64,000 bases of DNA. Source: Thermoproteota archaeon. Its GTDB lineage: Archaea > Korarchaeota > Korarchaeia > Korarchaeales > Korarchaeaceae. The position numbers were made by a program, and so were the translations under genes. The stretch is from positions 62,001 to 126,000 of the forward strand of contig JAOZFI010000036.1 of the NCBI GenBank assembly GCA_027491395.1, written 5' to 3'. The notes beneath the pieces were generated by a model. The model was not told the origin of the DNA and did not search any database. It was given only the letters and a program-made list of their open reading frames with translations. Below, in pieces: positions 25,609-39,434 of this stretch; the stretch's first letter is position 1, and each line of letters opens with the position of its first letter.

Positions 25609-26289
25609 TCAAGGCTGAGGGGTAGGTGTCTTGAAGGGTGAGGAATCTTCGAGCCTCCTCATGGACTTCAGAGCAAACCTCAAAACCAGCAGCGTGAGAG
25701 GGATTCCCAGTAACAGAAACGCACTGGGATCCAAAAACAGGAGGAAATCGTAGGTGCCGTGGAGCAAGATCGGGAATACCAGTGCCCTCGCTAGGCCCTC
25801 TTTATATCCCATCATCTTCGCCCTTCCCAAGTACACCCCCATGACAGCACCATCCAGCGCGTGACTCGGAACCGCCAGCACTGCCCTCACCAAACCCACC
25901 AAGACCCCGCCTTCCAGCACATAGAACAGGTTCTCCAGCGTGGCGAATCCCAAGGAGGAAGCTACAGAGTAAACTACCCCGTCAAAGGGCTCATTAAACT
26001 CTTTCGAGTTGTAGGCCAGCAATAACACCGCTAGGAACTTCATAAGCTCCTCTGGAAATCCTATTCCGAGGTAACTCATGTAGATTAGGAGCGAAATGTC
26101 CCCAGACCTAGGGGATAAGTTGGAAAGTAACACGCCCTCAAAAAGAGCTGCCGGAAAGACGGCCATCACTCCAGCGAGGAATACCTTCTCAACCAGCGAC
26201 AAGGATTCCCTCTCATACCTATCCTTCAGGTAGAAAATCATCAGCAGGAATAATCCTGGAGCCACTGCAAGCACTAACAGATGTAGCAT
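25609..26289 (-). CDS. PrsW-like intramembrane protease
   Basis: Polytopic membrane protein, 226 residues and about seven hydrophobic segments. The PrsW/CAAX-like motifs are present: the EExxK core in FPEELMKFLAVL, FATLEN with its glutamate, a histidine in VPSHALDGAVMG, and HGTYDFLLFLD near the C-terminus. Such proteins cleave membrane-embedded substrates, but no target is evident here. The ATG follows GAGAGGAGGGTC immediately downstream of the C/D box RNA gene. Confidence 0.8.
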   Translation of the reverse strand: MLHLLVLAVAPGLFLLMIFYLKDRYERESLSLVEKVFLAGVMAVFPAALFEGVLLSNLSPRSGDISLLIYMSYLGIGFPEELMKFLAVLLLAYNSKEFNEPFDGVVYSVASSLGFATLENLFYVLEGGVLVGLVRAVLAVPSHALDGAVMGVYLGRAKMMGYKEGLARALVFPILLHGTYDFLLFLDPSAFLLLGIPLTLLVLRFALKSMRRLEDSSPFKTPTPQP

Positions 26290-26306: not shown

Positions 26307-26368
26307 GGGGGGTCGGGACTCGGCAAAGTCATCACTCGTCAGCCGGTTGATCCTACCTCATTCCCCCG
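26307..26368 (-). ncRNA. C/D box sRNA guiding rRNA 2'-O-methylation
   Basis: On the minus strand a terminal GGGGG/CCCCC stem encloses a degenerate box C (AATGAGG), a 12-nt guide AGGATCAACCGG, box D' CTGA (26339-26342), spacer CGA, box C' GTGATGA (26329-26335), a 12-nt guide CTTTGCCGAGTC, and a degenerate box D CCGA. The first guide is perfectly complementary to CCGGUUGAUCCU at the universally conserved 5' end of archaeal 16S rRNA. By the N+5 rule it would methylate the first U of that segment. The second is complementary over about ten bases to the ACUCGGCAAA segment I recall as conserved in archaeal 23S rRNA. Confidence 0.82.
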
Positions 26369-26388: not shown

Positions 26389-26396
26389 TAATAAAG
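26389..26396 (-). promoter_or_regulatory. TATA box for the C/D box sRNA
   Basis: CTTTATTA on the minus strand is centred about 25 bases before the first base of the sRNA stem, the normal archaeal spacing. It supports an independent transcription unit rather than a leader of the PrsW-like gene. Confidence 0.6.
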
Positions 26397-26456: not shown

Positions 26457-27329
26457 TCACCCCTTCTTCTCCGCCTTGACCTTGGCAGGGAGGGCCTCAG
26501 CTGGTTTGTGCGGCTTGAAACCGAACTTTCTTTTTATTAAGAGCTTCTTTAAGAGCTGTATTCCTTGAGCAGGATCAACCCCTCTTGGGCAGACGTCTGA
26601 GCAGGAGGCTGCGAAGTGGCAGCGCCAGCACCCGTGCTCGGTATCCACGACGGATATCCTGACATCGAGACCATTGTCTCTGGTGTCGACTATGTACCTG
26701 TACGCCTGAGCTAGGGCTTGGGGTCCTAGGTACTCGTAATCCGTGGCGGCGGTTGGACAGGCGGACAGACAAGCCCCGCACTTTATACAATCGGTGAACT
26801 GGTAATATCTAGCGTATTCATCGACCGTCTGCTTGTAGGGGCCAGTCGGATTGTTCAGCTCGACATCATCGTTCCTTATTATCCAAGGCTTCACAGCCCT
26901 GTGCTTTTCGAAGAAGGATGTGAAATCAGCAGCTAGGTCTCTCTCAACAGGGAAGTTATCCAAGGGTCTCAACTCAACGACATCACCGCTTCCAGCAGCC
27001 TCTAGAACTCTAGTCTGACAGGCCAGCATCTGCTTACCGTTTATCATCATGGCGCACGATCCACAGAGTCCCATCCTGCAGGAGTACCTTAATCCGAGGG
27101 AATGATCCGCCTCCCCTTTTATTATCAGAAGGGCATCTAAGACCGTCATTCCCCTTGAAACTTCCAGTTCATGTTCCTCCCAATATGGAGCGTAGTCCTT
27201 CCTCGGGTTGTATTTGTAGATCCTGAACTTTATCTTCCTTACAGGCTTCCAGAGCTCCTCAGAGGCCTTCATGGTCTCCTCAAGTACCTCGGGCGGAAGA
27301 ACATACTCCTTAGCTTCCTCTGAAGCCAT
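26457..27329 (-). CDS. sdhB: Succinate dehydrogenase/fumarate reductase iron-sulfur subunit
   Basis: Electron-transfer subunit of complex II, 290 residues. The [2Fe-2S] site is CRMGLCGSCAMMINGKQ plus LACQT. The [4Fe-4S] and [3Fe-4S] ligands are in CIKCGACLSACPT and CWRCHFAASCSDVCPRGVDP. There is an N-terminal extension of about 30 residues and a basic C-terminal tail. It is the last gene of the operon sdhA-sdhC-sdhD-sdhB on the minus strand. The ATG follows GGAGGTGATTTT. Confidence 0.96.
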   Translation of the reverse strand: MASEEAKEYVLPPEVLEETMKASEELWKPVRKIKFRIYKYNPRKDYAPYWEEHELEVSRGMTVLDALLIIKGEADHSLGLRYSCRMGLCGSCAMMINGKQMLACQTRVLEAAGSGDVVELRPLDNFPVERDLAADFTSFFEKHRAVKPWIIRNDDVELNNPTGPYKQTVDEYARYYQFTDCIKCGACLSACPTAATDYEYLGPQALAQAYRYIVDTRDNGLDVRISVVDTEHGCWRCHFAASCSDVCPRGVDPAQGIQLLKKLLIKRKFGFKPHKPAEALPAKVKAEKKG

Positions 27330-38955: not shown

Positions 38956-39336
38956 ATGGCTGAGGAGAACCTCCCACCAAGTCTGAGGGATGTGCTTGAG
39001 AAGCTCGACAGAGGAGAGAAAGTGAGCGATAAGGAGTTATCTAATGCCTTCGCTGAGCTCAGAAGAGATTTCTTCAAAGTAGGAGAAGTTCTACTTTCTG
39101 AGAGATTATCCCTATATGAGATGATCAGGCTGGGCATAGAGATGGCGGACGAGGACCTCTTTCTCGCATGTGATGAGCACGATTCCCTGAGGAGGATCGT
39201 CTACAAGGTCGTGAGGATGATGAGCGGGGAGAGTTTAGAGAAGGCATCTAAGGAGATACTCTCCAAGGACTTAGAGAGGACCCTCTTGGGTGCGTTCATA
39301 ATGAGGAGATTGGGTGGTCGGGGCGGGGGGACTTGA
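38956..39336 (+). CDS. Small helical protein overlapping tRNA-Tyr
   Basis: 126 residues, mostly helical and charged (SLRDVLEKLDRGEKVSDKEL, SLYEMIRLGIEMADEDL). No membrane segment or recognised domain. Its last seven codons lie antisense to the 3' end of the tRNA-Tyr gene (39315-39336), so the terminal RRLGGRGGGT is dictated by the tRNA acceptor and T-arm sequence. The gene may have been extended into the tRNA after loss of an earlier stop. The start ATG 38956 follows a TATA-like ATCTTTATC at about 38921. Confidence 0.55.
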   Translation: MAEENLPPSLRDVLEKLDRGEKVSDKELSNAFAELRRDFFKVGEVLLSERLSLYEMIRLGIEMADEDLFLACDEHDSLRRIVYKVVRMMSGESLEKASKEILSKDLERTLLGAFIMRRLGGRGGGT

Positions 39337-39434
39337 ACCCCCGACCTGCCGGTATCTGTGAGAGCGGGCCGCTGACGGAGCGCCGCCCGGCGCCCTCTAC
39401 AGCCGGCCGCTCTGCCAGGCTGAGCTACGCCCCG
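39315..39434 (-). tRNA. tRNA-Tyr (GTA) with a 43-nt intron and encoded CCA
   Basis: On the minus strand the acceptor is CGGGGCG/CGCCCCG with the C1-G72 pair diagnostic of archaeal tRNA-Tyr, discriminator A and encoded CCA (39315-39317). D arm, anticodon stem GCCGG/CCGGC with loop CTGTAGA (anticodon GTA), and T arm GGGGGTTCAAGTCCCCC follow. An intron at 39354-39396 lies between positions 37 and 38. CTGT pairs with ACAG and is flanked by three-base bulges AGA and ATA, a standard bulge-helix-bulge splice site. A TTAATATAG box lies about 27 bases upstream. Confidence 0.96.

Follow-up and report, generated by a model that had tools for sequence, protein, structure and literature searches.

The window, the whole 64,000-nucleotide stretch of DNA analysed, carries on its minus strand (26367-26308) a C/D box sRNA that is complete, has a pair of 12-nt guides and is approximately 60 nt long as read from the sequence. 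Its neighbours are an sdhB-like gene on one side and a PrsW protease gene on the other, and the features of the locus are as follows.

26457 to 27329, minus strand: sdhB-like gene (iron-sulfur subunit, Pfam Fer2_3), upstream of the sRNA and beside it in 13 of 20 loci tested
26389 to 26395, minus strand: TATA-like TTTATTA, recognised by sequence only, centred 25 nt upstream of the first G of the stem (presumed RNA 5' end)
26363 to 26367, minus strand: 5' arm of the terminal stem, GGGGG, pairing with 26308-26312
26355 to 26361, minus strand: box C, ATGAGGT (RNA AUGAGGU), forming a k-turn with box D in which 3b.3n is G-C
26343 to 26354, minus strand: D' guide AGGATCAACCGG (RNA AGGAUCAACCGG), 12/12 Watson-Crick to the 16S 5' end CCGGUUGAUCCU; retained in 18 of the 29 genomes from the phylum
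26339 to 26342, minus strand: box D', CTGA (RNA CUGA), almost invariant among relatives
26336 to 26338, minus strand: spacer CGA, 3 nt, between D' and C'
26329 to 26335, minus strand: box C', GTGATGA (RNA GUGAUGA), canonical, from sequence and alignment
26317 to 26328, minus strand: D guide CTTTGCCGAGTC (RNA CUUUGCCGAGUC), complementary to 23S ACUCGGCAAA with 10 contiguous Watson-Crick pairs; the most conserved stretch
26313 to 26316, minus strand: box D, CCGA, with its second base (C) paired to G5 of box C
26308 to 26312, minus strand: 3' arm of the terminal stem, CCCCC, pairing with the GGGGG arm
25609 to 26289, minus strand: PrsW-family protease gene (Pfam PF13367), starting 18 nt after the stem; present in 7 of 20 loci, those of the closest relatives only

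Box D', the spacer, box C', the pair of 12-nt guides and the closing stem named in the original prediction were all read directly on this strand, with a single A (26362) between the GGGGG arm and box C. The frame given there for box C, AATGAGG, was one base off; with box C taken as AUGAGGU, the D' and D guides are each exactly 12 nt. Relative to the consensus boxes RUGAUGA and CUGA, D' and C' are canonical while C agrees at 5 of 7 positions and D at 3 of 4. The proposed TATA-like box was found where the sRNA would require it; TTTATTAG is kept at this position in the closest relatives, with AT-rich TTTATT-like stretches in others. A scan for bacterial-type promoters and terminators returned nothing, such elements not being expected in an archaeon. 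The element is a candidate minus-strand transcript of about 60 nt.

A search of both strands of the 64 kb for the order C, guide, D', spacer, C', guide, D returned this one candidate, and none was returned from 30 first-order Markov shuffles. An Rfam scan of the window matched no C/D family, and the Rfam sR14 covariance model gave no match above its gathering score in the window or at loci L001 and L012. Plain folding of the sRNA was no better than that of shuffled sequence (z = 0.12), as expected of an RNA whose k-turns depend on L7Ae. A protein-coding reading was rejected, as no ORF of at least 90 aa lies over the sRNA in the window and few do in relatives. Elsewhere in the window, a tRNA gene (39318-39434, minus strand) is, at 117 nt, long enough to contain an intron.

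Genes for fibrillarin (E=3e-87) and a Nop domain protein, Nop5 (E=3e-65), are adjacent in one operon of the source MAG (G000). Identity of the element as a C/D box sRNA, as first proposed, is supported by these genes together with conservation and covariation, all of which, like the anatomy and the guide-target complementarity, were established by computation. At least one other C/D sRNA-like match was noted in the source genome (L151, G000:C43:24576-24644) beside a tRNA gene, with C box AUGAUGU, D box CUGA and a G-rich/C-rich terminal stem.

The outer C and D boxes, first described as degenerate, are not so, their changed bases covarying (G-C, A-U, G-U) in 14 of 14 relatives. In the 14-sequence alignment, the 3b.3n pair (C-box position 5 with D-box position 2) is G-C in eight sequences, A-U in five and G-U, still a standard pair, in one; it is never unpaired, and a standard pair is present in all 14. 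The GA of box C and the GA of box D are invariant in every sequence. The outer boxes of G019, a genome of the same family, are AUGAUGA and CUGA, with U.U at 3b.3n; this canonical form and the covarying pairs of the other sequences indicate that the Korarchaeal outer k-turn has exchanged the common U.U for a Watson-Crick pair, which in the window RNA would be G-C. In the 5-bp terminal stem, compensatory changes at the third pair from the box give G-C, C-G or A-U across relatives. Covariation over the whole structure was 0.270 compared with 0.118 in shuffles, with none of 500 shuffles reaching 0.270, and was also above that of all slid versions, although the shuffle control ignores relatedness of the sequences and a handful of independent events is probably behind the signal. 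A k-turn with G-C at 3b.3n, as in the U4 k-turn, folds upon L7Ae binding and not with ions alone (PMC5061560). In boxes, 12-nt guides and N+5 rule the window RNA resembles the archaeal dual-guide C/D sRNAs presented by Dennis et al. (2015, PMC4644070), and it differs from those described there in the Watson-Crick 3b.3n pair of its outer k-turn. Strict scans for RUGAUGA and CUGA will miss Korarchaeal C/D RNAs of this form.

No rRNA genes were found with SSU or LSU models in the source MAG (62 contigs, 98% complete) and targets were therefore taken from the rRNA of relatives. Among these, G008 is approximately 99% identical over the sRNA locus and its partial 16S and 23S both contain the target sequences. 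All Korarchaeal 16S genes with the start read begin GAGACCGGUUGAUCCUGCCGG, and in every sister genome for which the start was read the D' guide is perfectly complementary to the 5' end of 16S, CCGGTTGATCCT, so that the exact complementarity first claimed held at 12 of 12 Watson-Crick pairs. The N+5 nucleotide for this guide aligns to E. coli U13. The ten-base match proposed between the D guide and 23S was likewise recovered as 10 contiguous Watson-Crick pairs with AACUCGGCAAAU in four full-length 23S genes of relatives; the footprint of the guide is 1666-1677 (E. coli numbering) and its N+5 nucleotide, a C, corresponds to E. coli 1670. From E. coli numbering we take position 1670 to be in 23S helix 61, and positions 902, 820 and 564-570 of 16S to be in h27, h25 and h19. 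Helix 61 is named as a methylation hotspot by Dennis et al. (2015, PMC4644070), and given this placement site 1670 falls within a hotspot so named. The guide criterion given in the same paper is at least 9 consecutive Watson-Crick pairs covering N+5 (PMC4644070), which both window guides exceed with 12 and 10 pairs to sister rRNAs, N+5 included. Both N+5 positions, U13 and C1670, are thus predicted sites of methylation.

Of 29 genomes of the phylum, 23 have a family member by covariance model at E<=0.001; a DNA search recovered the RNA from 17 of 41 relatives, including one in another phylum. The canonical boxes of G019 are accompanied by both guides. In G003, G015 and G018, otherwise fairly complete relatives, the D' guide has been replaced while the D guide stays, and in G017 the 16S guide is kept and coupled to a different D guide; the two guides therefore turn over separately, and the replacements in three relatives indicate that the 16S site is not indispensable. 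Wherever the 16S guide is retained, so is the N+5 pair. The D' guide ends in CCGC at L012 and L013 and in CCAC at L009 and L140, as compared with CCGG; these mismatches are confined to the 1-2 positions beside box D', so that 9 or more pairs remain, the N+5 pair among them. Approximately 1 kb from an intact sRNA, second copies with damaged boxes and guides were noted at L152 (G020:C4:135273-135342) and L153 (G016:C9:41179-41248) and are apparently decaying duplicates.

Across 20 loci the sRNA is intergenic in most despite changing neighbours. From the occurrence of sdhB at 13 of these loci and of PrsW at only 7, the RNA is not tied to PrsW. In G009, two contigs (L005/L102, L018/L068) share the upstream part of the same sRNA locus and differ downstream in the presence or absence of PrsW, an arrangement that reflects either a strain mixture or a recent insertion or deletion 3' of the sRNA.

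The same 16S guide was found in other archaea by an exact pattern search (box C core, then GGATCAACCGG-CTGA) of 84,980 species genomes. Among the 62 matches, a complete second box pair was in place in 39 of 43 from archaea and in 0 of 19 from bacteria. Guide and CTGA together occur in 30 of 394 archaeal genomes, compared with 0 for a reversed control pattern. A reading of the sRNA as a random match was rejected from these two contrasts and from the Markov shuffles. Hosts of the 16S guide include Thermococcales, Desulfurococcales, Thermogladius, Culexarchaeia/Methanomethylicota, Wolframiiraptor and one Sulfolobales MAG; Thermococcales and Korarchaeia have it as the D' guide, and most crenarchaeal and Culexarchaeial forms as the D guide. 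Its occurrence in unrelated phyla, with different partners, means that the 16S guide is not unique to Korarchaeia. The 16S 5' end, at first regarded as an odd target, is accordingly that of C/D sRNAs from several archaeal groups, Rfam sR14 among them.

Matches to sR14 (RF01145, Pyrococcus/Thermococcus) come from three of the named Thermococcales loci and from two Pyrococcus-like genomes; like the window RNA, sR14 has a D' guide, GGAUCAACCGG-CUGA, complementary to the 16S 5' end. The 16S-guiding half is thus of a kind already catalogued, although a statement of the 16S target of sR14 was not found in the literature covered, and an earlier listing of the 16S 5' site may exist. The second guide of sR14 differs from that of the window RNA, being directed to 16S at approximately 820 in Pyrococcus and to 23S at approximately 442, or to no clear target, in Thermococcus, as opposed to 23S 1670. 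The Korarchaeal RNA belongs to a family distinct from any Rfam model, the C/D kind itself being familiar.

With 9-10 Watson-Crick pairs taken as a convincing partner target, and helix names assigned here from E. coli numbering, partner guides pair with 16S 899-908 (h27) in Culexarchaeia, 16S 816-827 (h25) in Wolframiiraptor, where the pairing of Pyrococcus sR14 is similar, 16S 564-575 (h19 region) in Desulfurococcales and Thermogladius, 23S 1670 in Korarchaeia and 23S 442 in Thermococcus. No convincing rRNA target was found for the partner guides of some Thermococcus, Sulfolobales and other loci. Since about 7% of random guides score at least 9.5 against one 16S and one 23S, single partner matches are not decisive; recurrence of central-domain core sites across lineages, noticed post hoc, is suggestive. 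At L089, L090, L096, L100 and L110 (Culexarchaeia/Methanomethylicota), the D' guide is directed to h27 and the D guide to the 16S 5' end. At L052 and L082 (Wolframiiraptor) and at L165 (Pyrococcus-like), the 5'-end guide is coupled to the guide for 16S ~820 in opposite positions, and this coupling, found in two groups distant from one another, is possibly convergent. The 16S hotspots named in the main text of Dennis et al. (2015, PMC4644070) are h3, h18 and h27, with none at the 5' end, and the supplement of that paper may list more.

Taken together, the window RNA is very probably a functional dual-guide archaeal C/D box sRNA directing methylation at 16S and 23S. We infer its transcription, RNP assembly, methylation and chaperoning from sequence. 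The sRNA would assemble with L7Ae, Nop5 and fibrillarin, the D' guide would pair with the first nucleotides of pre-16S and direct 2'-O-methylation of the U that corresponds to E. coli U13, and the D guide would pair with 23S and direct methylation of the C that corresponds to E. coli 1670. A candidate extension of the D' duplex to 15 bp into box C (GGU with GCC, one G.U) was set aside because these box C bases are required by the k-turn. While bound to 16S, the sRNA would also have to prevent helix 1 from closing and the 5' strand of the central pseudoknot from pairing, and for this reason a folding-chaperone side effect is likely.

Such an effect recalls U3 snoRNA, which like the window RNA pairs with the 5' end of SSU rRNA (h1 and the 5' side of the pseudoknot). 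Box A/A' of U3 pairs with 18S nt 6-22, an interaction mutually exclusive with the central pseudoknot (PMC4340053), and the box A' and A regions bind 18S H1 and H27 (PMC9196750). According to reviews, neither U3 nor any RNA resembling it is known from archaea (PMC8339473, PMC3608112). Unlike the window RNA, U3 guides no methylation and has 5'-ETS pairing elements and dedicated proteins. The second contact of U3, h27 on the 3' side of the pseudoknot, is found only in the Culexarchaeial RNA, the two guides of which together correspond to both 18S contacts of U3; the window RNA lacks it, its D guide being directed to 23S 1666-1677. Even with this second contact in 23S, the window RNA may, by analogy, act in a U3-like manner on the 16S 5' segment.

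That the sRNA is mainly a chaperone of this sort, delaying formation of helix 1 and the central pseudoknot, with U13 methylation secondary or absent, is an alternative reading that we regard as unlikely, although less so than the others considered here. The 16S segment bound is that of the U3 box A/A' site (PMC4340053), and U3 also pairs with both H1 and H27 (PMC9196750). At 85 C, the predicted energy of the guide-16S duplex was -6.0 kcal/mol compared with -0.2 kcal/mol for the h1 hairpin. Partner guides elsewhere are directed to what we take to be h27 (902), h25 (820) and h19 (564-570). Furthermore, a model of the P. abyssi 30S subunit at 3.2 A has Am373 and Cm1376 besides acetylated sites and no Um at the 5' end (PMC7005279), and a Pyrococcus-like genome carries sR14 with the same 16S guide. 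The lack of a modelled Um, which also counts against methylation of the 16S site, could be due to resolution, to incomplete modification or to a role other than methylation, and a methyl group not modelled at 3.2 A is weak evidence. Against a primarily chaperoning role, the second guide in the window lineage has its target in 23S and not on the 3' side of the pseudoknot, three relatives have swapped out the 16S guide and the N+5 pair is kept wherever this guide is kept, as for methylation guides.

A different possibility is that only the 23S guide matters and that the 16S guide, retained through shared ancestry, is drifting. This would fit the greater conservation of the D guide and its retention in G018, G003 and G015 with differing D' guides, but appears improbable given that 18 of 29 genomes of the phylum keep the 16S guide, that G017 couples it to another D guide and that unrelated phyla have it in either guide position; persistence and recurrence in both positions point to selection on the 16S target. 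If, instead of an independent RNA, the element were an L7Ae-responsive k-turn in the PrsW 5' UTR, a stem ending 18 nt before the PrsW start codon on the same strand would be accounted for, but this reading is most implausible with PrsW downstream at only 7 of 20 homologous loci, rRNA-matching guides conserved beyond the k-turn and a TATA-like box placed for the sRNA itself.

As a dual methylation guide, the window RNA is well supported and of an ordinary type; its description is new for the Korarchaeal lineage, and its k-turn has one unusual feature. A broader proposal, which we regard as speculative and rather unlikely, is that in archaea the function of U3 is served by C/D sRNAs directed to the 16S 5' end, which would keep helix 1 and the 5' strand of the pseudoknot open while in several lineages their partner guides would hold h27 (Culexarchaeia), h25 (Wolframiiraptor, Pyrococcus) or h19 (Desulfurococcales/Thermogladius), the Korarchaeal version coupling the 16S 5' end to 23S. 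With this target, the existence of an archaeal counterpart of U3 can be tested directly. The conserved Korarchaeal RNA and the RNAs with the same guide elsewhere provide named candidates with which to ask whether the folding role of U3 grew from a methylation guide.
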